Of a stretch of DNA of 64,000 nucleotides, positions 1,559 to 58,100 are shown piece by piece. This stretch comes from Anaeramoeba flamelloides (taxonomy: Eukaryota; Metamonada; Anaeramoebidae). Each line of letters starts with the position of its first letter. Position 1 is the first letter of the stretch. The notes under the pieces were generated by a model. It saw only the letters and a list, made by a program, of their open reading frames with translations. It was not told the DNA's origin and searched no databases. The DNA lies in NCBI GenBank assembly GCA_027625915.1, contig JANTQA010000065.1:1-64000 (forward strand). The letters are read 5' to 3'. Position numbers and translations under genes: made by a program.

Positions 1559-1604
1559 TCATTTCTACTTTAGTAGAAATGAAAGGCCATCTTTAGATGG
1601 CCTT
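1559..1604 (+). other. Double hairpin, copy 1
   Basis: Two perfect hairpins with no spacer. The first has an 11 bp stem (arm TCATTTCTACT, centre TT) at 1559-1582. The second has a 10 bp stem (arm AAGGCCATCT, centre TT) at 1583-1604. Both have the same apparent CTTTAG loop. The sharp change to a G-free tract begins right after it. Likely a structured RNA or a protein-binding site; transcription is not shown. Confidence 0.8.
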
Positions 1605-7190: not shown

Positions 7191-7236
7191 TCATTTCTAC
7201 TTTAGTAGAAATGAAAGGCCATCTTTAGATGGCCTT
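7191..7236 (+). other. Double hairpin, copy 2
   Basis: Identical to copy 1 over both stems and loops: 11 bp then 10 bp stems with TT centres. Confidence 0.8.
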
Positions 7237-7550
7237 CAAAACAGTATATATAAAACCACCATATCAATAAATAATCACACAACAATCAACAAACAACAAT
7301 AAAACCACAAACAACAACAATAATCACTTACTTTTTAAATTAATACAAAACACAATATATTACAATCACAAATAAGTTACAAATCTCTACACTTAATTTA
7401 AACTAACAACATAACATAAAACAAAACATAAACATAAAATAATATTCATAAAAAAAAACAACAAACAAACAAATAAACAAAACAAAAACTTATATTCATA
7501 AATACACACCTCAAATACAAATAAAGATAATAAATCCAAAACTGACATTT
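7237..7550 (+). other. G-depleted A/C-rich tract after hairpin copy 2
   Basis: I count 3 G in 7261-7560. Sequence unrelated to the tract after copy 1. Confidence 0.75.
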
Positions 7551-34311: not shown

Positions 34312-34390
34312 TCGCAAAGTGGAAATATTAAACCCTCAATCTTACTAGCCTAGGTTCGATTCCACCGAAACTCATTTTTTTTTTTTTTAT
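34312..34390 (+). ncRNA. Pol III-like A box and B box with T-run
   Basis: TCGCAAAGTGG (34312-34322) matches the tRNA A-box consensus TRGCNNAGTGG at 10 of 11 positions. GGTTCGATTCC (34353-34363) is an exact B box. Start-to-start spacing is 41, close to tRNA spacing. A T-run from 34375 could terminate Pol III. No acceptor stem and only two T-stem pairs form, so this is not a working tRNA; a tRNA-derived SINE head, a pseudogene or another Pol III gene is possible. Confidence 0.45.
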
Positions 34391-34620
34391 TAAACTTTTT
34401 ATTTTTTTTTTCATTTTTTTTTTAACCAAAATACTACACTTCCCCAAACACACTTACACCTTCCCTAATTACTCCACACACAACATCAAACAATTATATC
34501 AAATTCGGCCTTTTTCAAGCTAAAATTCACAAAACCACAACCTAAACATTAATATTAAAAATCAAATTAAAATTAAACAATAACTAACAATAATAAGTAT
34601 ATTTTATAAAAATCAAAAAA
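34391..34620 (+). other. T-runs then G-poor A/C-rich tract
   Basis: After several T-runs, 34430-34620 is strongly G-poor on the plus strand, like the tracts behind the double hairpins, but without hairpins. Confidence 0.55.
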
Positions 34621-34626
34621 ATACAT

Positions 34627-34985
34627 GAACATTAACATTAACATTAACATTAACATTAACATGATCTATTAAAATCAACCAAATTTTAAGATCAACATCA
34701 ACATTAACATTTTGAATATAAAATTATTATTAACGATATTAATCTAATAGATAAAAAAAAATTTCAATTAAAGAGAGAAAATCACACCCTTATTTTTGAA
34801 TCATTACAACTTTGGAGTAAACAAAAAAAAAAAAAAAAAAAAAAAAAAACATTAATCATTAAATCGAATACCAATTTGGTGGGTTTGAAACTATTCACCA
34901 ATATTAATTATTGTCTAATTATTAATAACATTCAAATTATACATTATATTATTTATTGATATCATCTAAAAAAAACAAACCATAA
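34627..34985 (-). repeat. First reversed hexamer array and A-run
   Basis: ACATTA units (complement of TTAATG) at 34627-34663; A-run at 34828-34849. From here to 37446 the array polarity is opposite to the rest of the window. Confidence 0.75.
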
Positions 34986-34995
34986 AAATTAAAAA

Positions 34996-35230
34996 ACCCA
35001 GAAAATATCAACTTGTTTGAGCGAAGCGAGATTTCTGGCCCCACATTCCCCTTTCGCCTTGCATTACACAAACATTCACTTGCGCCTTACATTTGATCAC
35101 ATGACTTTGTGCCTTTTCATTTGATCAACATCCACCCCAAATGCTAACACCCAAATGGACTCAGCCTAATAACACCCCCGTTAGGCGATAGCCCTCCTTA
35201 CTCCGCGCGAGAAGCGCCAATAACAACATC
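34996..35230 (-). repeat. GC-richer unit R, copy 1
   Basis: Runs from CCAGAAAATATC to GAGAAGCGCC. Holds GAGCGAAGCGAG (GCGAAGC core at 35021), three internal ~28 bp subrepeats (TTGCGCCTT + CATTTGATCA-like), GGCGATAGCC, and GCGC-GAGAA-GCGC. The CCAGAAA...TTTCTGG arms could enclose the GCGAAGC core in a hairpin. Followed by (ATC)n and a CATTAA array. Confidence 0.85.
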
Positions 35231-35285
35231 AGCATTATCATCATCATCATCATTACAACATCATCATCATCATCATCATCATTCT

Positions 35286-35660
35286 CATTAACATTAACAT
35301 TAATATTAACATTAACATTAACATTAACATTAACATTAACATTAAGATTAAAATTATTTTTAAATCCTTAAGTAATAAAAAATTATCAAATTAAAACCAA
35401 AATAACAACAAAAATTAAAATTTACATATAACATTTAAAATAAGATCTCAAATCTTAACATTAACAAAGAACAATTAACAATTAAAAATTAAAAACGAAC
35501 ATATAAAATTAACATTAACATTAACATTAACATTAACATTACTTTTTATTACTTAACTAATATTAAATTATCAAAATTAAAATCAAAATAACAACATAAA
35601 TTAAAATTAAAATTACCAATAATCTTTAAAATAAGATCTTCTCAAACATTAACATTAACA
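35286..35660 (-). repeat. CATTAA arrays and linker, R copies 1-2
   Basis: Array 35286-35345, AT-rich linker with ATCAAAATTAAAATC words, array 35507-35541. The linker recurs between the other R copies. Confidence 0.8.
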
Positions 35661-35669
35661 TTAAAAAAA

Positions 35670-35900
35670 CCAGAAAATATCAACTTGTTTGAGCGAAGCG
35701 AGATTTCTGGCCCCACATTCCCCTTGCGCCTTGCATTTCACAAACATTCCCTTGCGCCTTACATTTGATCACATGACTTTGTGCCTTTTCATTTGATCAA
35801 CATCCACCCCAAATGCTAACACCCAAATGGGGTCAGCCTAATAACACCCCCGTTAGGCGATAGCCCTCCTTACTCCGCGCGAGAAGCGCCAATAACAACA
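35670..35900 (-). repeat. GC-richer unit R, copy 2
   Basis: GCGAAGC core at 35693, 672 bp after copy 1. Same subrepeats and hairpin cores, with a ggggtc variant where the other copies have ggactc. Confidence 0.85.
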
Positions 35901-36180
35901 TCAACATTATCATCATCATAATCATTAAAACAACAACATCATCATCATCATTAACATTAACATTAACATTAACATTAACATTAACATTAACAATTAAAAA
36001 TTAAAAACGAACATATAACATTAACATTAAAATTAACATTAACATTAGCATTACTTTTAAATCATTAACTAATATTAAATTATCAAAATTAAAATCAAAA
36101 TAACAACATAAATTAAAATTAAAATTAACAATAATATTTAAAATAAGATCTTCTCAAACATTAACATTAACATTAAAAAA

Positions 36181-36410
36181 ACCAGAAAATATCAACTTGT
36201 TTGAGCGAAGCGAGATTTCTGGCCCCACATTCCCCTTTCGCCTTGCATTACACAAACATTCACTTGCGCCTTACATTTGATCACATGACTTTGTGCCTTT
36301 TCATTTGATCAACATCCACCCCAAATGCTAACACCCAAATGGACTCAGCGTAATAACACCCCCGTTAGGCGATAGCCCTCCTTACTCCGCGCGAGAAGCG
36401 CCAATAACAA
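36181..36410 (-). repeat. GC-richer unit R, copy 3
   Basis: GCGAAGC core at 36205, 512 bp after copy 2. Preceded by arrays at 35948-36060. Confidence 0.85.
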
Positions 36411-36683
36411 CATCAACATTATCATCATCATTATCATTACAACAACAACATCATAATCATCATTAACACAAACATTAACACAAACATTAACATTAACATT
36501 AACATTAACATTAACATTAACATTAACATTAAAATTAACATATAACATTAACATTACTTTTAAATCATTAACTAATATTAAATTATCAAAATTAAAATCA
36601 AAATAACAACATAAATTAAAATTAAAATTACCAATAATCTTTAAAATAAGATCTTCTCAAACATTAACATTAACATTAAAAAA

Positions 36684-36910
36684 ACCAGAAAATATCAACT
36701 TGTTTGAGCGAAGCGAGATTTCTGGCTCCACATCCCCTTGCGCCTTGCATTACACAAACATCCCCTTGCGCCTTACATTTGATCACATGACTTTGTGCCT
36801 TTTCATTTGATCAACATCCACCCCAAATGCTAACACCCAAATGGACTCAGCGTAATAACACCCCCGTTAGGCGATAGCCCTCCTTACTCCGCGCGAGAAG
36901 CGCCAATAAC
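36684..36910 (-). repeat. GC-richer unit R, copy 4
   Basis: GCGAAGC core at 36708, 503 bp after copy 3. Slightly shorter in the subrepeat zone. Minus-strand frames through copies 3 and 4 end with ARSKEGYRLTGVLLR; this follows from the repeat itself. Confidence 0.85.
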
Positions 36911-36934
36911 AACATCAACATTATCATCATCATC

Positions 36935-37443
36935 ATCATTAACATTAACATTAACATTAATATTAACATTAACATTAACATTAACATTAACATTAACATT
37001 AACATTAACATTAACATTAACATTAACATTAACATTAAAATTATTTTTAAATCCTTAAGTAATAAAAAATTATCAAATTAAAACCAAAATAACAACAAAA
37101 ATTAAAATCAAAATTTAACTATAACATTTAAAATAAGATCTCAAATCTTAAAATTAACATTAACAAATAACAATTAAAAATTAAAAATAAACATATAAAA
37201 TTAACATTAACATTAACATTAACATATAACATTAACATTACTTTTAAATCATTAACTAATATTAAATTATCAAAATTAAAATCAAAATAACAACATAAAT
37301 TAAAATTAAAATTAACAATAATATTTAAAATAAGATCTTCTCAAACATTAACATTACCATTAATTAATAAAAATTAACAATTATCAATCATCATATAACA
37401 TTAGCATTAACATTAACATTAACATTAACATTAACATTAACAT
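36935..37443 (-). repeat. Long CATTAA array and derivatives
   Basis: Near-continuous CATTAA units 36935-37036, linker, then further arrays at 37200-37236 and 37395-37443, ending directly at a transposon. Confidence 0.85.
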
Positions 37444-37445
37444 TA

Positions 37446-37850
37446 CAGTCATTCTAAATCTAGGGTGAATTTTTATTTGAATAAAAATTTGTTTCTGATC
37501 TGAAATTTTAAATAGTTGAATTACGGATATGAAAGCTCTTATTCACAAAAATTTTTCTGAATAAAATTATATTCAAAAATTTTTTTCCATATAAAAGAAA
37601 ACTATTTTTCAATTTAGAAAAAAAATTGAAAAATCCAAAATACCCCGAATCTAAGCTAAATTTCACACTTTTAAAAAACAAAGGATTTGTTGTTCATATT
37701 TAAAAAAAATTATTCAATATAAACTCATCAAAAAAAAAGAGATAATTTGAATCACAGATCTTTTTTATCTTTAATTCAACTTTTTAAATTTGCATATCAG
37801 AAACAAAAATTGTTTCTTATAAAAATTCACAACAAAATCTGAACAGTTGT
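37446..37850. mobile_element. Tc1/mariner-like MITE, TA-flanked, 405 bp
   Basis: TA-CAGTCATTCTAAATCTAGGG on the left, AAATCTGAACAGTTG-TA on the right. Interior matches the 13362 and 21082 elements. It interrupts or abuts the reversed hexamer array, marking the switch back in polarity. Confidence 0.8.
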
Positions 37851-43360: not shown

Positions 43361-43734
43361 GTGTGTGTGTTAACAAAATATAATCAATTGGGATACAATT
43401 TAAAATAGTTGAAAGAATAGCAATATTAGATTTTAAATTTCAATTTGGGAATAATTTTCATTTTACAAAAATATGAAAATTCATTTTTTTGTCTATAAAA
43501 TGTTTTTTTATTTTCATTTTTCTAATTTACCATTTGAGTAATCTTTTTCATTTAGATCTCAGAATTTTTTTTATTTTTTTAATCCAATTATAGTTTAAAG
43601 AAGATTAATGTATAGTTTGTTGAATGGAAAAAATTAAATATTATTAGTTGATGGTATCCACACATTTGATAGATCGACAACAAATGGAGGAGAAATTTCA
43701 ACAAATTAACCAAACACAATTTATTTTCCTAACT

Positions 43735-43735
<1 letters not shown>
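43319..43735 (+). repeat. 5' flank of a hairpin-less unit
   Basis: Follows an AT/GT run (43323-43371). Same landmarks as 966-1558 (AATTTGGGAATAATTTT, ATTTGATAGATCGACAAC, ATTTCAACAAATTAACC), but then breaks into a T-run with no hairpins. Confidence 0.55.
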
Positions 43736-43737
<2 letters not shown>

Positions 43738-43801
<64 letters not shown>

Positions 43802-43822
43802 TAATATTTTTTTTTTTTTTTT
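43738..43822 (+). repeat. Long T-run
   Basis: About 62 T, a short break, then more T. It takes the place where the double hairpin sits in other units. Confidence 0.8.
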
Positions 43823-43829
43823 AAAAAAA

Positions 43830-44180
43830 TAATAATTTCCCCAAACAAAATCACAATTTAACAACAATATCAAATACAAATAAACATAAATTCAACAAAT
43901 AAAAATACAATATAACATAACAATCAAATACATATAACTAAATATAACATAACAATATTAATAACAAACACAAAAATACACCACCAACAATATATACTTA
44001 CCATAACTTAATACTCATAAAAATCACAAAATAAAATTTAAAATTACAATATTGATCCATACATAAAATATCAACTACAATCAACAATACTTTTAAATAA
44101 TAACTCATTAAAATAACACAAACATCAGTAATTTATAATATACATAACAACATAATAAATATCAACAAATCAAAAAACCA
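43830..44180 (+). other. G-depleted A/C-rich tract after a T-run
   Basis: I count 2 G in 43861-44160. No hairpin pair precedes it. Confidence 0.7.
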
Positions 44181-45187
44181 TAATTTGGCCACCAAATACA
44201 GACAATTCGACTCTCACAACAATTATTGTCAATTAAATTATCAATTTATAAAAAAATTCGAATAAAATTATAACCTTAAAAAACGTAATAAAATGATCAT
44301 TAAAATCTAAATTTCAATTCTTCATATAATTATATTGAAAATCCATTAAAAAATGTGGAACTGACTATAAATGTTCAATAAAAGTTGGTATAAATATCCC
44401 CACTTAAGGATTTTTGTGGTTCTAGTGTCATCAAGCACTCTGGGTTGGTTTAGGTCAAGTGTTTAAATATATAATTTAGTATTTTTTTTTTTTTTTTGGA
44501 AAGAAAGTCATCTAGTGACGTACTAAAAAGAATTTTCAACATCAATACATAACAAGATTAAAATAGATACACATTTACTATATGAACTAAATATTAACAA
44601 TTTGAACACAATTAAAAATAGCTGAAAAAATACCAATTCTGCATTTTACATTCAATCTGGTAAATAATTTTTATTTTACAAAAATATTAAATTAATTTTT
44701 TATCTATGTTGTTTTTTTTTATTTTCCTTTTTACAAATTTAAATCCTTTGTTTCATTAGATATCTTGAAATTTTTTTTTTTTTAATAGAATGATAGAAGG
44801 TTACTATTGAGTTTTTTAAATTGAAAAAATCACATATAATTATTGGTTGATTGTTTTCCTACACTAGATCGATTTAACAACAACAAAAATTCTCAGAGGA
44901 ATTTCAAAAAATTTACTAATTAAATGTTTAGTTCCAACTCGTTCATTTCATCATTTTTGACACTCCCAATTTTTAATTATATAGAAAATTGCTAGTTTTT
45001 TCAGGTATATTTCTTTTTTGAGAATTATCAACTCTAATCCTAAAGTTTATTTTTTGAGATCATTTCTAAATTATCACAAGCCAATGGATTAATTCAAAAA
45101 AATTTTTATTTTTATAGGATCTTTTACATTTAAGAGAGAGTGTAAATTTATATTCTTTGATTTAAATTGTAAACATCGATAATAAAC
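44181..45187 (+). repeat. Trailer, leader and 5' flank of hairpin unit 3
   Basis: 44180-44590 closely matches 53905-54310 (CACCAAATACAGACAA, TGTGGAACTGA, AGTGTCATCAAGCACTC, GGGTTGGT, ACATAACAAGATTAAAATAG). Then come the usual 5' flank landmarks up to the hairpins. Confidence 0.65.
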
Positions 45188-45233
45188 TCATTTCTACTTT
45201 AGTAGAAATGAAAGGCCATCTTTAGATGGCCTT
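45188..45233 (+). other. Double hairpin, copy 3
   Basis: Identical stems and loops to copy 1. Confidence 0.8.
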
Positions 45234-45640
45234 CAAAACACAAATACAAATACAAATCATTTCACAAACAAACATATATATCAATTCAAAATTCCAAATT
45301 TAATGATCAACAAAACACAATCACACATAAAACAATAAACAAATATTAAAAATATAATCTCTAATTACTTAAACTACAAATACACAGCCAAACACAACAA
45401 CAACAACTCAATAAAAAAACATACAAAAACAATAAATAACAATAAAACATCAAAACTTACCAATTAACACAATCAAATACAAATCATAACACTATAATAA
45501 ATACACAAAAAAGTTACAAAACAAAAACACATAAAATAAATAAAACCAACAATATAACTCATAATGTTAATAAATCAGAAATAATTCGACATTTTACAAA
45601 ATTTAAAAAAAACTTCTACAAATTACCCAACAAATAATAC
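45234..45640 (+). other. G-depleted A/C-rich tract after hairpin copy 3
   Basis: I count 3 G in 45241-45540. Confidence 0.75.
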
Positions 45641-46300
45641 AGTGACGTTCATAAAGATAATTCAATAATCAAAAAAAAAATTACATTTCTACTTAACATT
45701 CAATTGATACATAATGAAAAAAAAAATAGCAGATATCTAAACTCAAACATACTAATTTCGAAAGGAAAAATGAAAAAAAGAAATAATCACAATTTTTGAG
45801 CTTAAAAAATGAAGATCCTAAAAAAAAACTTGAAAAACAACTCTAACTTTTGAAGATGGTGTATATATGAGTTTTGATGCACAAGTTGCTTGAATTTACC
45901 ATTTTTAAGCACAACTGAGAATAAACCCGACAAACAATTGAGAGATATTTTTTGTTTTTTTTTGGTTTTGGTTCTTTTGGTTTCTTCTGTTTTTATAGAG
46001 AAGAGAAGTCCTCATAAGGATCTTGGGTGAATATTATTAACTCTGTTTTATATATTTTGAAAGAATCTTCCATTGCCAAACACTATTTATGATTTTTGGT
46101 GCTTTTTTTGATAATATATTTACCGTTTGGATTGTTTCTTCTTAAAACTCAATTTGTTGTGTAAGAAACAAAATGGATTAAGGGATAGTGGGAAATCTTT
46201 GTGGAATTTTACAATCATTAGTTTAATGATGAATAACTTTTACAAAATTTAGTCAGTTTTTTCTATTAAAAAAAAAAGATTTTACTGTTCACAGTTGATT
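45641..46300 (+). repeat. 3' flank of hairpin unit 3
   Basis: AAAAATGAAGATCC near 45806, the GAGTTTTGATGCACAAGTTG block near 45870, and a decayed form of the segment that is also at 8019-8280 and 49389-49610. Confidence 0.55.
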
Positions 46301-48471: not shown

Positions 48472-48517
48472 TCATTTCTACTTTAGTAGAAATGAAAGGC
48501 CATCTTTAGATGGCCTT
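48472..48517 (+). other. Double hairpin, copy 4
   Basis: Identical stems and loops to copy 1. Confidence 0.8.
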
Positions 48518-48900
48518 CAAAACACAACTAAAAAAACTCGAATAATATAAAATTTTTAAAACACTAAAATTTTAAAACACAAAACTACACAAACACACTC
48601 AAAACAACTAAATATAAATCAACAATAAACAAATTAACAACCAAATAAATTCAACACAAACTCAATCAGACCTCACATTAACATTCAATGCACTAAAAAA
48701 ATTCTATCAAAAAACACAAATAACTAAAACACAAATCATTCATCAAAACAACAAATAACAACTAACTGATTAAATTCAATTAATAACCGCACAATATAAA
48801 CAACTACATTAACTCAACAAAAATAATATCTAATACATCAAACAAAAAAATAAACAATTATAAAGCCAACTCAAAAAAAAACGAAAATCGACAATACACA
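48518..48900 (+). other. G-depleted A/C-rich tract after hairpin copy 4
   Basis: I count 4 G in 48541-48840. Confidence 0.75.
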
Positions 48901-50220
48901 AAATTGTTGCAAATAATTTATGATTTAATCTCATAAAAATTCTGAAAGGACATTACTTGTTTCTAATGAGATATACTCAAATTTAGATCAAAATTTTTCA
49001 TTCTTTTTTTTTTTTTAACTGGAAAATGAACAACCAAATTCGAGTCGAATAAACTCGAACAATCTTCTTCAGAAACCTAAAAATGAAATCAAAAAATAAT
49101 CACGATTTCTGAGCTTGAAAAATGAAGATCATTTCAAACATTCTAGATCAACAACTCTAACTTTTGAAGGTTGTGTGTTTTTGAGTTTTGAACATCAAAT
49201 TGCTTGAATTTTCAATTTATAACCCACAAATCAGAACAATTCCTTCAAAGAAATTCTGATTTTCTCTTTGATTTTTTTTATTGGTTCGGTTATTTTGTTT
49301 TTTTTGGTTATTTTGGTTCGTTTTGGTACTTTTTCAAATTGAATTGAAGTTCTCACTCAGATCTTTGCTAGATATTATTTACTCTGTTTTATCTTTTGAA
49401 AGAATCTACAATGCCAAACATACTCGAAATACTTTTGTTCATTTTTATGTTTTTTTTGAGATGTTTTGTTTTTTTTGTGTTTTGTTTTGTTTGGTTTCTC
49501 TCGAAAAAGTGAATTGTTAGTCTCAATCCAAATTGGATTGGGGTATAGCCATGGTCAAGGTTTTGGAATTTTACCTTCATTGATTCAGAATAAAAAAAAA
49601 ATTTTTGCAAAAATTTACTAAGTTTTTGTTAATCTTGAAAAAAAAAATTTATTTGTTCATCACAGTTGATTTAGAAAAAATGATCAATTTGTATTTAAAA
49701 AATAAGCAGTTGTGTTGTCTTCAAGACAATACCATATACTTTACCTGTCTTTTTCCAACTTTGACTTTGTTAGGAAATAACAAAGCAACCTGTCTATACC
49801 AATTCCAAATTTTTGCAAATTTTTGATGATTTTGAACTTTTAGATGAAAATTGAGACCCATTACATCTCAACTAACATCTGAAATTTCATATGAGTTACT
49901 GTAGGTTATTTCCCATCTGTAGCAAATGGTTTTCAATTCTCTCCTATTTGTACATTTTCTCCAAAATTCGATTTTTCCTTTTTCCTATACTTCTTTTACA
50001 TTTTGAGAAACCAAAAGATAAAATCACAGAAATTACAGAAATTACAGAAATCACAGAAATCACAGAAAGGAGGAGTTACGATCAATTCTGACATTTTCTT
50101 CTAAAAAAACTCATTTGCTCCAAAATTGATCTTAATGAATAAATATTTATGAGATTTACCAAACATGAAATCCTCTTTTAAACAAACCAAAAATCAAATT
50201 TTGACTTGACCAACCTAGTC
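48901..50220 (+). repeat. 3' flank of hairpin unit 4
   Basis: AATAATCACGATTTCTGAGC and AAAATGAAGATC near 49096-49130, CAGAACAATTCCTTCAAAG near 49232. Frames at 49281, 49389 (minus) and 49605 are Phe-rich or repeat-derived. A short acagaaatt tandem repeat lies at 50027-50070. Confidence 0.5.
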
Positions 50221-51198
50221 GTTAACTTTTCTAATTTTTTTTTTTAAAAATTTTAAAACTTACTTTATTAATTCAAAATTTTGATTTTCACGAGATCTTT
50301 AAATATTACATTTCTCTTAAGAGCTTTTATAAAACACAACAACTCAATTTATCTTGGTACTTTAACAATTTTTTTTTGCTGAGAAATAATACAAACACCT
50401 TCAAAAATTTTATCAAAAAAAAAACACTAAAAGAAACCTTTGGTTTAGGTTAATATTTGGTAATGAAGATTCTATTCTATTCAAAATCCAAAAGAGATAA
50501 TATATGAACCTCAATAGAGATCTTGAGAACTTGAATCCAATCTAAAAAAAAAAGAAAAACACAAAAAAAAAACAAAGTAACCAAAGTGACCAAACGAAAC
50601 AACAGAACCAAAGGAAAAAAATAAAAAACACAAAGTAACAAAGAGAAAATTGCCTATCGTCTCCAAAAATAACCAAAAGGAAAAAAAAGAAAATTACAAT
50701 TCTTCTCTTGGAGAACCAAAATGATTTATGTGACAATAGAACAATAAATGTTACTCAATGTTCAAAAACCAAAGACAAGTGATCTTTGAAATTTGGAATT
50801 GTTTTTTCAGGAATGTTTGAAAATGATCATCATTTTTTTTATATAGGGAAGAAAATCTCTGATATTTTAACCTTATTAAATTTTTTAATAACAAGTTTTC
50901 AGGGTTTAGAGAGTTATCTCAAAATTTCTTTTTCTTTTGATTACCATTAAAAAAACAACTTATAAAACAAATACTAAAAATTTTTTGATCCCAAATTGGA
51001 AACCCTTTGCTATTTAATATGACTTTAAAATTTAAATCTGATTGGAGATTAAAATATGAGGACGATTTGGAAAATATCAAACATTATACTTCAAGATTTT
51101 TTTTTTATTTTATTTAATTTATTAAAATTTAGGAATTATTGAAAGTAAATACTTTGAAATAAAATTTTCTCTTTTAATAATATACCCTTTGAGTTGGA
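50221..51198. other. AT-rich stretch, no gene seen
   Basis: A-rich patch 50530-50700 gives Phe-rich minus-strand frames. Nothing recognised. Confidence 0.4.
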
Positions 51199-51459
51199 TT
51201 ACAACTTTGGTAATTGTTTTTGAGAATTTTTAAGACATATTTTAAATAAAAAAAAGTTGTTATATATAAAATTTATAGAAATATTTTCTATTTTAATATC
51301 TTGGTCGGAATTATTTGGTTGATTGATTTGATCTAAAAAATATTCTGATGTTTTGATATCTTTGATTCGAGTATTGTATATTTTAGAAATTGTTTTGGTA
51401 GTACTGATAAATTCCAATAAATATCTGTAAATTTTTACTTCATTTTCCATTTTTAACAA
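51199..51459 (-). CDS. Hypothetical 86-residue ORF
   Basis: Minus-strand frame beginning MLKMENEVKIYRYLLEF and ending KNSQKQLPKL, with TAA stop. It may instead start at the second Met, in a TTAAAAATGG context. Composition is mixed (Lys, Ile, Asn, Glu, Ser, Asp) without homopolymers, and it is not inside a recognised repeat. No signal peptide; one hydrophobic patch near the end (FIYNNFFLFKICL). No family recognised; could be chance in AT-rich DNA. Confidence 0.25.
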   Translation of the reverse strand: MLKMENEVKIYRYLLEFISTTKTISKIYNTRIKDIKTSEYFLDQINQPNNSDQDIKIENISINFIYNNFFLFKICLKNSQKQLPKL

Positions 51460-51698
51460 TTGTTTTACACAAGCTTTGTAGAAAGCATTCTATTGATTTA
51501 TAGGTTAAAAAACTTTGTAAAATTGGTTTGGATTTAAAAAGTTCTTTCTCTTGAGTTGTTTTAAAAGTTGAGATATGTGATTACAAAATGGGAAATTGAA
51601 GTAAAAATTTTATTGAATTTATTTGAATTTATCAGTATTGTTTTTTTGTTATATTTTATTTTTTTTCTGACTATTTTAATTAAAAAAATAATTTAAAT
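51460..51698. other. AT-rich leader before hairpin copy 5
   Basis: Lacks the GAGAGA and TATAAA landmarks that precede copies 1-4 and 7, so the hairpin module can stand without that flank. Confidence 0.5.
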
Positions 51699-51743
51699 TC
51701 ATTTCTACTTTAGTAGAAATGATAGGCCATCTTCAGATGGCCT
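51699..51743 (+). other. Double hairpin, copy 5 (loop variant)
   Basis: First stem unchanged. In the second hairpin the apparent loop is CTTCAG instead of CTTTAG, and the first stem base pair is lost (9 bp stem AGGCCATCT). The changes fall in the loop and stem base, as expected if structure is kept. Confidence 0.8.
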
Positions 51744-51744
51744 C

Positions 51745-52805
51745 GTGAGAATCACAACTTAACATATTAAATACACACAAATACAAAACCACAAAATCAA
51801 ATAAATATCAAAATTTACATATAATAACCACACAATTATTTCATACATAAATTTAACAAAATAAACACAAAATAACAAACTATTATAGACAAAACCAAAT
51901 CAATTAATCTACACACACAAAATGACAACAAATAACAAATTATCAAAATACAGTGAATTCCACAAAACACTAATATTTATATCAACAACCAAATACAAAA
52001 TAAAAAATGTTACAGCCAGTTTCGCTTTCAAGACACAAACTTTCAACAAAATTTAAACCACAAAAAAAATCTCAAATTAAAAGCACAAAATTCAAATACT
52101 AGTAAAAATAAATTGTAAAAAAAAAAATTCCAAATTTTGTACCTTAATTTGAGATTTTTATTGTGCCTTAAATTTCGTTGAAACTTTGTGCCTTAAAAGT
52201 GAAACCGACTATACAACATAAAATATTACTATCAAAATAACTATATAGGTTAATTTTAATGAAATATCATCTAAAATTAAATATTAATCATATTCAAAGC
52301 CATTATCAATTCATCTTATTAATTTTTTATATTTAAAAAACTCAACAAAAATAAAATACTACAATCATCTAAAAAAAAACATATCAAACTCAACTGATCA
52401 ACTTACTGGAAAAACAAAAAACAATAAACATAACAAAAACAATAATAAACAAACCAGTCTATAAATCAAAATTATTAATAAATCTAATACAAGTATAGTA
52501 TTATCATAAAAATTTTCAAAAATTAAAAAAATATTAAAATTGATGGAATTTCATCTTGATTAAACTACAAATATTTTAAAATTGTATGAAATATATAAAA
52601 CAATAATAAATTGATTCCAATTATATAAAAAAAACTACAATATAATCAATTTAGATTTAACAATATTCTGATAATCATACATCTAATATTTAATAATCTT
52701 TTAATTCTCACAATTTTAAAAGAACAAAATTACTATTGAATTTTAATCACAAAGTTATTTATAAAATTAAGGAAAAAAATACAGTATTCAATTAAATCCA
52801 ATAAT
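51745..52805 (+). other. A/C-rich tract after hairpin copy 5, interrupted by a MITE
   Basis: 4 G in 51781-51960. Beyond the MITE (52013-52211) the A-rich bias continues but weakens, with more T and some G. Confidence 0.65.
52013..52211. mobile_element. Palindromic MITE, copy 3, altered within the A/C tract
   Basis: About 199 bp, the same element as at 32697 and 33943. Relative to those two copies almost every change removes G or T and adds A or C. Target TA still visible at both ends. Confidence 0.85.
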
Positions 52806-53266
52806 AAATTCTTTCCAAGTCTTCCATAAAATTTAACATAGAACACACTTGATGTGTCTATTCTTATTTTATATTTTCAAAAGATTCTGAAATAAGAGCT
52901 ATTATTCCAAAAAAAAAAATTTTTTCAATAAATGAGCTATTATTCAAATATTTGAAACATTAAATAAAAAAAAATCAAGATTCCATGAAAATTATGAATT
53001 ATTGGTCCGAAATAGCTCAAAAAAAATATCAATAAATACCGTTCTTTAAAAATTTACCTTTTTTGAAGAACATTTTTAAATTCTTAAAGAATCTTTAAAA
53101 TTTTTTTTTATTTAATATTTCAAATATTTGAACATAGCTCATTTATTATTATTTTTTTTTTTTTTGAATAATAGCTCTTATTTCAGAATCTTTTGAAAAT
53201 ATAAAATAAGAATAGAAAAATCAATTTTGTTTGTTTTAAAATTTTATGGTACCCTTGGAAAGGCTG
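52806..53266. mobile_element. Foldback/Tc1-like element, ~460 bp
   Basis: Right end CCCTTGGAAAGGCTG then TA; left end TCTTTCCAAG with the outermost bases worn. Long internal arms pair (ATTCTTATTTTATATTTTC at about 52860 with its complement near 53195). No coding capacity. Confidence 0.7.
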
Positions 53267-53363: not shown

Positions 53364-53408
53364 TCATTTCTACTTTAGTAGAAATGATAGGCCATCTTTA
53401 GATGGCCT
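53364..53408 (+). other. Double hairpin, copy 6
   Basis: First stem unchanged. Second is 9 bp (AGGCCATCT) with the same CTTTAG loop and the GATAGG spacer variant shared with copy 5. Confidence 0.8.
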
Positions 53409-53960
53409 GATATAGATTACTAACAACACAAAAACAACATCACCAACACATAACAAAACTAAAACATAAATACACAAAATACACATCACAAATAAACAAA
53501 CAAACATAACTACACATTAAACGAATATAACAACAACACAACTAACATACTAACATCAATTTAAAAACTATAACTTAATATCATCAATAAACAATACAAA
53601 CAACAATAAATAACATCATTTTCAAACAATTTTATTTAAATTATCAAATACATATCAACAACCACAAAATCATTATTTCAATCTCAAACACAACAATACA
53701 CAATCAACAAAACATCAAACCTTCAAATTAATATCTAAAAAAATTATCAAAAACAAATAAAAAACTTTCAATAAAAATCAATATATAACAACCAAACTAC
53801 ATTCAAATAACCTTATCAAAAATACCACATACAAATAACACAAACAACAAAAATAATTATAATAAAAAACAACATACTAAATAACACCGAATTAAAAAAC
53901 CAACCATAGCACACCAAATACAGACAACTAAACTATCAAGACACCTATTGCACATTAAAT
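53409..53960 (+). other. G-depleted A/C-rich tract after hairpin copy 6
   Basis: The most extreme tract: I count 1 G in 53461-53820 (360 bases). Confidence 0.8.
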
Positions 53961-54624
53961 TGTAAAAATTTCTTCAAATAATATTTTCTCTTTAAATATA
54001 TAAAAAAATCATCAGTAAAATCTCAATTTCAATTCTTCATCTAATTTTATTGAAAAACCATTAAAAAATGTGGAACTGAACATAAATGGACAATAAATCT
54101 AGGTATAAATAATTTCCCTTCAGAAGATTTGGAGTTCTAGTGTCATCAAGCACTCAGGGTTGGTATAGTTCAAGTGTGTAAATATATATTTTAGTATTAA
54201 TTTTATTTTTTTAGAAAAGAAAGAAATTCCTATAGTTATTAACTAAATAGAATTTTCAAAATCAATACATAACAAGATTAAAATAGATATACATTTACTA
54301 TGTGAACTACAATAAATCATACGGATACAATTAAAAATAGCTGAAAAAATACCAATACTGCATTTTACATTCAATCTGGTAAATAATTTTTAATTTACAA
54401 AATAATGAAAATTAATTTTTTATCTTTTTTTTTTCTTTTTTTTTTTTCACATTTAAGTCATTTGTTTCATTACATCTTGCAAAATTATCTGATAGAAGGT
54501 TACTGTTGAGTTTTTTAAATTGAAAAATCCTCATATAATTGGTTAATTTTATTTTTACATTTGATCGATTTAACAACAAAAATTGTCAGAGAAATTTTAA
54601 AAAATTTACCAATTCAGTGTTTTG
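53961..54624 (+). repeat. Trailer, leader and 5' flank of hairpin unit 7 (left part)
   Basis: Matches 44215-44960. Interrupted at 54655 by the insert described next; the flank resumes at 56025. Confidence 0.65.
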
Positions 54625-56259: not shown

Positions 56260-56305
56260 TCATTTCTACTTTAGTAGAAATGAAAGGCCATCTTTAGATG
56301 GCCTT
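56260..56305 (+). other. Double hairpin, copy 7
   Basis: Identical stems and loops to copy 1. Confidence 0.8.
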
Positions 56306-56660
56306 CAAAACACCACATTAAAAAAACAACAACACACTCAATAATAAACTTACACAACAACAAAACAATTAGAGTAATAACAATTCTCTCAACAAACATA
56401 AAATCAACTCACAAATTCAATTAAATCAATAAATAGAAAACAATCAAATCACCAAATAATTTTAACATTTCCAAATCAAATACTCAATTAATTTATACAG
56501 CTTATCCACCCCTACGAATTTCTAACAAAAATTCAATTAATAACAGAAAAAAACATCCTCAAATAAACTGCAATTTGAGAATCAAAATTACCTCGGAATA
56601 AAAACAAAAACACAATAAAATACACAAAAAACCATCTACTCTCAGACATCACATTTTTTT
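56306..56660 (+). other. G-poor A/C-rich tract after hairpin copy 7
   Basis: 5 G in 56341-56520, rising afterwards; less extreme than the others. Confidence 0.65.
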
Positions 56661-57370: not shown

Positions 57371-57660
57371 AAATAAGCCAGATTCAAATCAAAATGAATT
57401 TTTAAAAAAAAAAAAATAAAATAAACTATCCCTATTAACCTAATTAATGACATTCATTTTAAATAAACTTTTTTGAAAAAAATCACTATAATTTATGAAA
57501 ATATCAAATAAAAATTTACCCAAATAAGGTAAACAACTTATTAAAATTATCATCTTATTCCATATAAATATCATTTTAAAAATAAAAACAAAACAATTAT
57601 AAAGATATAAATTGTTCCACACCTTAATTAAATTGATAAAAATTAATATTAAAATCAAAC
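57371..57660. other. AT-rich stretch, no gene seen
   Basis: Nothing recognised. Confidence 0.4.
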
Positions 57661-57667
57661 TAAATCT

Positions 57668-58080
57668 TAACATTAACATTAAAATTAACATTAACATTAA
57701 CATTAACATTAAAATTAACATTAACACTAACATTAACATTAACATTAACATTAAAATTACTTTTAAATCATTATTTTTAAATTCTTAAGTAATATTAAAT
57801 TATAAAAATTAAAATCAAAATAACAACAAAAATTAAAATTAAAATTTACAAATAATATTTAAAATCAAATATTATTAAATTTTAACATTAACATAAACAT
57901 TAAAAATTATCAATCAACATATAAAATTAATATTAACATTAACACTAACCTTAACAAATAACAATTAACAAATAACAATTAAAAATTATCAATCAACATA
58001 TAAAATTAATATTAACATTAACATAAAATTAACATTAACATTAACATTAACATTAACATTAACATTAACATTAACATTAC
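57668..58080 (-). repeat. CATTAA arrays (reverse orientation)
   Basis: Arrays at 57668-57755, 57885-57960 (degenerate) and 58012-58078 with the same AT-rich linker words as at 35350-35640. Confidence 0.8.
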
Positions 58081-58100
58081 TTTTAAATCCTTAAGTAATA

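Follow-up and report, generated by a model that had tools for sequence, protein, structure and literature searches.

What becomes of a transposable element that lands in DNA almost devoid of G? The question is raised by a MITE copy that interrupts a G-poor tract in the window (the whole stretch of DNA analysed here, i.e., the opening 64 kb of a contig of 87.5 kb in a eukaryotic assembly of 254 Mb and 76 contigs), and that had been predicted to be pulled towards the A and C composition of its surroundings by strand-specific deamination. A proteasome beta-2 fragment from this assembly shares 93% identity with two Anaeramoeba flamelloides records, and the organism, an anaerobic amoeba, is accordingly an Anaeramoeba or closely related. 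The extent assigned to this copy in the original prediction is exact (Table 1). Its TA target duplications occupy positions 52011-52012 and 52212-52213, and the window copies and the family alignment share CAG/CTG ends flanked by TA, so that terminal inverted repeats and the TA target duplication are both present; with its TA target, the MITE is presumably Tc1/mariner-like.

Changes in the MITE copy and in its relatives

Compared to the majority base of 64 non-tract copies, the MITE copy carries 13 substitutions in scored columns (5 G>A, 2 G>C, 3 T>C, 2 T>A, and 1 A>G) and has lost no C; one further G>A at the last base (52211) was clipped from later counts. The share of changes from G or T to A or C is 12 of 13, or 13 of 14 if position 52211 is counted; the original figures of about 16 substitutions, about 15 of them in this direction, thus hold for the direction and are slightly too high for the number, since they were based on a comparison with two copies only. 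Four of the G>A changes (family positions 23, 38, 71, and 130) are present in 9-44% of the background copies and therefore provide no evidence of tract rewriting; an old subfamily sharing the same changes could account for these four and fails to account for the remaining nine, which are rare (<8% of background copies) and consist of eight G/T>A/C changes and one A/C>G/T change (binomial p 0.015). The 64 background copies show 127:148 changes (G/T>A/C : A/C>G/T), or 139:136 when oriented by local skew. Five of the nine rare changes (2 T>C, 1 G>A, and 2 T>A) recur jointly in C5:26324 alone, which represents the same insertion in a paralogous unit (L005/L043; the surrounding 2.5 kb align at 97%); another four occur in the window copy alone, and six in the C5 copy alone, so that the shift began before the split of the two copies and continued after it. 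The unique events of this insertion amount to 10 G/T>A/C, 3 A/C>G/T, and 2 A>C; the shift of the MITE towards A and C is confirmed.

By flank skew, 76 full MITE copies were divided into 7 tract and 64 background copies, with five copies of intermediate skew (L029, L039, L007, L013, and L070:1448) in neither class; 18 copies with a skew of 0.2-0.45, which overlap the background, gave 29:40 when oriented by skew. Four insertions that follow an intact hairpin pair (see below) at a distance of at most ~650 bp were pooled as reporters of tract rewriting: the window/C5 insertion (counted once), L033:4622, L072:1324, and L054:848. Excluded from this pool were L035:1402 (6:10), L035:1988 (11:7), L053 (2:1), L068:267 (2:1), L072:1616 (9:5 if oriented by the tract, at a distance of 731 bp), and two copies ~+730 behind a damaged hairpin, L068:2050 (4:2) and L060:566 (5:2); the change counts of the MITE copies vary slightly with the alignment used. 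The pooled reporters show 43:19 changes from G/T to A/C against 127:148 in the background (Fisher p 0.001), and a G loss:gain of 19:4 against 69:71 (p 0.003). Much of this weight is contributed by one old copy (L072 on C47, +439 behind an intact pair, 23:8), without which the p values are 0.06 for direction and 0.05 for G loss:gain; the L033 copy (+440) has 10:7, or 11:8 under another alignment, and is not significant alone, and the L054 copy has 0:1. Some neighboring T>A calls in the L072 copy sit in a T-run and may reflect the alignment.

The pooled counts support the predicted pull of inserted DNA towards tract composition, more weakly without L072. A pull exerted by any G-poor stretch is not what the other copies indicate: L035:1402, ~130 bp behind a damaged hairpin, has 6:10, and two copies in G-poor DNA not assigned to a hairpin, L053:2350 and L068:267, have 2:1 each (2:2 and 2:1 under another alignment). 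All seven tract-called copies (L033, L035, L053, L054, L068:267, the window copy, and L043) have identical orientation relative to the G-poor strand, which may be due to chance, to an insertion preference, or to an effect of rewriting on the orientation call.

Hairpin pairs and the tracts behind them

Seven G-poor tracts in the window are each preceded by the same hairpin element on the plus strand (Table 1); the element is matched seven times at ≤3 mismatches, and not once in 100 shuffles. It consists of two perfect hairpins with 10-bp and 8-bp stems and 4-nt loops, separated by a single base, and has a folding energy of about -15 kcal/mol (z about -8) on both strands; the tract begins ~13 nt past hairpin 2, and in a tract sample no fold was found on either strand. 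Across the genome, 219 places match 32 bases of the core at ≤2 mismatches, and none match the reversed pattern. Both stems are fully paired in 17 of 26 units read from contiguous stretches; thirty loci were chosen by exact match of the 32-base core, which inflates the apparent conservation of the hairpins. The stems are conserved as sequence, and no covariation was found that would support a fold over a palindromic protein site. Approximately 500 bp upstream of the hairpins are recognizable across 15 units of one class. Rfam gave zero matches in the window at gathering scores, and searches of IMG/VR and the GTDB genomes for the exact hairpin core yielded nothing. To our eyes, hairpin 1 (TTTCTAC-TTTA-GTAGAAA) recalls the stem of the Cas12a crRNA repeat, a likeness that was taken as coincidence.

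Table 1. Positions of the MITE copy, of the hairpin pairs and of associated features in the window.
Feature	Position	Strand	Basis or remarks
Hairpin 1, 10-bp stem, TTTA loop	51699..51722	+	fold, pattern, stem analysis
Hairpin 2, 8-bp stem, TTCA loop	51724..51743	+	fold, stem analysis
G-poor tract interrupted by MITE	51757..52541	+	G-depleted segments 51750-52008 and 52262-52541
MITE copy under study, self-complementary, partly rewritten towards A/C	52013..52211	+	~311 bp downstream of hairpin core
Stretch paralogous (perhaps allelic) to C5:24322-26849	50021..52536	+	97% identity, same MITE insertion
Hairpin pair, unit 1562	1559..1603	+	tract ~1617-1931
Hairpin pair, unit 7194	7191..7235	+	tract ~7249-7525; belongs to polarised quintet
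Hairpin pair, unit 45191	45188..45232	+	tract ~45246-45641
Hairpin pair, unit 48475	48472..48516	+	tract ~48530-48864
Hairpin pair, unit 53367	53364..53408	+	tract ~53422-54051; 34/304 tract sites differ from C5 paralog
Hairpin pair, unit 56263	56260..56304	+	tract ~56318-56569; 32/304 vs C5 paralog, flank 7/825

Over 48 units, the G content falls from 6-14% upstream to 0.7-2.2% at +50 to +350; the tracts contain 54-56% A, 19-21% C, and 23-25% T, and background composition is regained by about +750. A coding tract was rejected for both strands, as the best frame over 300 nt in 57 units has 4.5 stops on the A/C strand (5.2 when shuffled) and 5.7 on the other strand (5.6 when shuffled). A hairpin origin was also rejected as a rule for every G-poor tract: two such regions of the window (34368-37447 and 57397-58094) appear by eye to be satellites of the (AACATT) type without hairpins, the former alternating with ~0.5-kb repeated blocks that contain GC-rich stretches, the latter followed from 58104 by a degenerate TTAGGG array. 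At 43500-44190, the upstream region resembles by eye that of the hairpin class, a long T-run replaces the hairpins, and the tract is still G-poor; if confirmed, this would be a natural deletion of the hairpins. A long inverted repeat seen by eye between two adjacent units (~52860-53210) is probably another transposon-like element; at locus L070 (5139-8000), open frames for leucine-rich and asparagine-rich protein resemble other Anaeramoeba-type proteins of the loci examined.

Exact 27-mers of the hairpin core identify 136 genomic places. On five contigs longer than 3 Mb, the copies located ≤200 kb from a contig end lie on the minus strand at left ends (16 of 17) and on the plus strand at right ends (20 of 20), so that 36 of 37 point outward; six more copies on the same contigs are interior. 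This count is limited to six ends of five contigs with known length, and copies that share one end are not independent, so that a binomial p overstates the outward bias; counted by ends, the orientation is outward in six of six. Since no telomere array was seen by eye in the 200-900 terminal bases of eight contig ends, these are putative chromosome ends, near which many of the hairpin units are probably located. Long stretches are common to different contigs, for example to the window contig and C5. A term search of the main text of a 2024 Anaeramoeba paper (PMC11550330) returned zero matches for telomer, subtelomer, and hypermutation.

Substitutions in the tracts and the state of the hairpins

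Twelve recent paralog pairs, some of which are perhaps alleles, were aligned; they had been picked by tract similarity, which works against high tract divergence, and stretches with >28% mismatch were masked in the divergence profile. Divergence is 1.3-3.0% per bin upstream (1.3-1.5% in the last 50 bp), 1 in 528 sites within the hairpins, and 1 in 96 sites at +42 to +50; it rises to 13% at +55 to +60, continues at ~10% to +175, 6-8% to +375, and 3-6% to +525, and is near background (0.5-3.8%) beyond +525 to ~550 bp. The fast zone peaks in the first 100-150 bp, is gone by ~550 bp, and occurs on the downstream side only; G depletion tracks the same distance curve and, bin by bin, is anticorrelated with divergence (Spearman -0.73). 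Of the twelve pairs, eleven have at least one intact member (all but L060/L068; in one nominally undamaged pair, a single base pair is broken in the C5 member); together they differ at 281 of 3193 tract sites (46-350) against 320 of 14801 flank sites, a 4.1-fold excess that is individually significant in nine pairs, in two of these at only p 0.04. The two exceptions are the MITE-bearing pair (9/304 against 29/1425, 1.5-fold, p 0.29) and L039/L062 (28/303 against 8/100, 1.2-fold, p 0.84), for which masking left a flank of just 100 sites. The tract/flank ratio is strongly heterogeneous between pairs, which may reflect bursts. Pairs with the second loop TTCA instead of TTTA (window 51702/C5:26013 and L040/L072) have low ratios of 1.5 and 2.0 and are too few for comparison. 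Gap frequency is alike inside and outside the tracts, i.e., indels are not raised; neighboring double differences are twice as frequent as expected (55 vs. 27.8), away from gaps as well.

The differences within the tracts of the twelve pairs (A-C 106, A-T 98, C-T 81, A-G 16, G-T 6, C-G 6) are distributed differently from those in the flanks (A-T 94, C-T 79, A-G 66, G-T 46, A-C 39, C-G 19), and G is involved in 28 of 313 against 131 of 343; once base content is corrected for, each of the six types is approximately four- to sevenfold more frequent in the tracts. One quintet and one trio of units allowed polarization of 57 tract changes (T>A 16, A>T 12, A>C 10, C>T 7, C>A 3, A>G 3, G>A 2, and one each of T>C, G>C, T>G, and C>G); A>T, T>A, and A>C together account for 38 of these, and A and T for 652 of the 806 sites. 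New G arises in 5 of 57 polarized tract changes and 5 of 35 outside, and is not clearly rarer; per site, G was gained at 5 of 786 non-G tract sites against 5 of 1426 outside, and lost at 3 of 20 tract sites against 6 of 177 outside. The polarized and base-corrected spectra indicate that the old base matters little; the process looks like a replacement mostly by A, T, or C regardless of the base that was there before. The shortage of G may result from a polymerase that avoids G, or from later loss or purging of G, two possibilities that the spectrum does not separate.

Damaged hairpins provide a natural comparison. In L060/L068, where the second stem is broken in both members, 3 of 304 tract sites differ against 23 of 2036 in the flanks; C48:20812850 (both stems broken) differs from C54:42810 at ~2 of 351 tract and ~8 of 491 upstream sites, as estimated from bit scores; and C66:86619 (one broken pair per stem) differs from C5:60949 at 0 of 351 tract sites, with 66 bits lost over 1361 upstream bases, or roughly 0.5-1%. 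The hairpins of the partners C54:42810 and C5:60949 were not read, and no exact core is listed there. The three tract/flank ratios are below all eleven others (exact p 0.003), one of them resting on zero tract differences; since this ratio varies strongly between pairs, it is a loose yardstick for the damaged ones. A further paralog of C48:20812850 (C48:20782770) is 95% identical over 200 tract bases and 89% upstream; C5:29263, with one broken base pair, diverges much from its counterpart at window 53367. Two damaged units were left out: C5:22712, unusable without a close tract paralog (best other tract match 68%, upstream ≤81%), and C8:38581, with a damaged hairpin 1, whose flank was not measured and whose tract paralogs (94% and 90%) have hairpins that match the exact core. 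Damaged units are still G-poor (median 1.6% vs. 0.8% in 15 and 42 units, p 0.24), which calls for recent damage or another cause. Judged from these sequence comparisons, the tracts are very probably products of one-sided hypermutation that depends on the hairpins.

Candidate mechanism, rival readings, and known systems

Taken as a whole, the best explanation is that each tract would be a local hypermutating patch, directed by the two hairpins and produced by gap refilling, a reading to which we would give an even chance; gap filling itself, as the route of hypermutation, is proposed tentatively and falls somewhat short of that mark. A gap of a few hundred bases would open at the hairpin; starting from the 3′ end there, an error-prone polymerase would refill it, with A as its most frequent insertion on the tract strand, T and C frequent, and G rare. 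The sharp start at a structure, the one-sided decay, the lack of indels, the clustering of changes, and the fixed strand fit gap filling from a 3′ end at the hairpin. By a simple route, a replication fork heading to the chromosome end would stall at the folded hairpins, restart beyond them, and leave a gap that would then be filled by translesion synthesis; on an outward fork, the minus strand would serve as the leading template, and the tract strand would be made from it. The same trace would be expected if a nick at the hairpin were resected. The MITE would have landed ~311 bp from the hairpins and would have been partly rewritten since. At non-instructive sites, A is preferentially inserted. 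REV1 inserts C only and acts at abasic, non-instructive sites, according to a review of hypermutation (PMC6423074). Both preferences combined would be a source of the A, T, and C output.

The deamination originally proposed for the MITE, in which C to U changes (and A to inosine) on an exposed opposite strand appear as G>A and T>C, with an AID/APOBEC-like enzyme acting on transcribed DNA as a possible agent, is very improbable: it would be consistent with the near absence of G from the tract strand, the faster loss of G in the tracts, and the changes of the MITE itself (5 of 13 G>A and 3 of 13 T>C), yet A-C and A-T differences between paralogs both exceed C-T differences, and G>A or T>C make up just 3 of 57 polarized changes. 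The original prediction therefore stands for the shift and for the pull towards tract composition, and fails for the cause, which the spectrum does not fit. A search for APOBEC_N (PF08210) gave no match in this genome, and none in 14 control genomes, so that little can be concluded from it. Transcription-coupled hypermutation, in which mutation trails the polymerase from a transcript start marked by the hairpins, as it does in immunoglobulin genes, would explain a fixed start with one-sided decay and a promoter-like upstream region recognizable in 15 units of one class; this reading is quite unlikely given the absence of an ORF signal in the tract, an onset ≤15 nt from the hairpin, and a spectrum that is not centered on C/G.

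Break-coupled synthesis retains hypermutation directed by the hairpins and proposes a different route, in which the hairpins are cut, strand invasion by the resected end targets a sister or another chromosome end and starts outward copying, and an error-prone polymerase makes the first few hundred bases. The outward orientation of the units and the long stretches shared between contigs would follow from it, and inverted repeats in yeast raise mutation via breaks and Pol zeta (PMC3681665); the yeast effect is two-sided with a reach of 8 kb, that of the tracts is one-sided, spans ~0.5 kb, and does not raise indels, and the break-coupled route is accordingly considered unlikely. Without any raised mutation, the tracts could be selected for a G-free, unfolded strand or simply drift while constraint or gene conversion slows the flanks; the sampled tract does indeed not fold, and G gain is raised less than other changes, as purging would do. 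This is improbable, as up to 1.5 kb of flank on either side, in which no long ORF was seen, is equally slow, the fast zone starts within bases of the hairpin, and pairs with damaged hairpins have slow tracts; the upstream regions of different units have diverged, which argues against general homogenization. Mutagenic retrohoming, known from bacterial diversity-generating retroelements, would also produce a sharply bounded variable stretch beside a hairpin, with substitutions and without indels, but its errors occur at template adenines (PMC12875486), whereas A, C, and T all change here and related tracts differ by ordinary descent; it is extremely improbable.

By its sequence features, the tract around the MITE is a member of a family of hairpin-led, fast-changing, G-poor patches. 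If the hypermutation reading is correct, a short DNA signal that starts a one-sided, half-kilobase replacement of bases would be another route of targeted substitution, in a distant protist lineage, and the tracts would record what a mutagenic polymerase inserts; some 200 copies, intact and damaged, and transposons of known original sequence inside the patches provide natural test material. A more speculative view, possible and rather doubtful, is that of a cis-encoded diversification system in a protist, with ~200 cassettes, many of them near chromosome ends, whose two hairpins would call for mutagenic refilling of the half kilobase that follows; every cassette would thereby carry a G-free, ever-changing sequence of its own, and the cell would use the diversity or the unfolded product; examples of such use may be a repertoire of non-coding RNAs, or keeping chromosome ends distinguishable. 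No earlier account of such hairpin-led patches was recognized in the open-access literature, a body that excludes most subscription papers and all preprints, and we know of no described system with the combined features of these tracts.

Few routes that aim substitutions are known to us, namely immunoglobulin hypermutation, diversity-generating retroelements, and repeat-induced point mutation. In repeat-induced point mutation, duplicated DNA acquires C>T transitions on either strand, unlike the tracts, where transversions dominate and one strand loses G. Immunoglobulin hypermutation decays with distance from the promoter, and the tracts share with it substitutions aimed at a chosen stretch and a zone with a fixed start and decay. 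According to PMC6423074, somatic hypermutation is initiated in a chosen stretch by a cytosine deaminase, leaves a C/G signature, and involves gap filling and translesion synthesis; in contrast to this C/G-centered process, A and T of the tracts change as readily. Diversity-generating retroelements (PMC12875486) are likewise dedicated local diversifiers; they copy a template with specificity for adenine, neither of which was seen in the tracts, and tract differences are among A, C, and T. According to Saini et al. (2013; PMC3681665), a translesion polymerase raises substitution near inverted repeats and fragile motifs in yeast; the tracts resemble them in the combination of a structure-forming repeat with raised substitution in its neighborhood and, by natural comparisons, in the dependence on an intact repeat. 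They differ in that the yeast repeats are long, prone to breakage, and act on both sides to 8 kb, whereas two short hairpins in ~200 units here affect one side over ~0.5 kb and leave a base composition behind. PrimPol, finally, reprimes beyond leading-strand structures, there G-quadruplexes, with an outcome reported as epigenetic (PMC4712188); its restart downstream of a structure would leave the gap assumed here, and hairpins with a substitution patch take the place of G-quadruplexes with an epigenetic outcome. The tracts lack a tested defining feature of each of the systems compared; the enzymes at work may still be ordinary.
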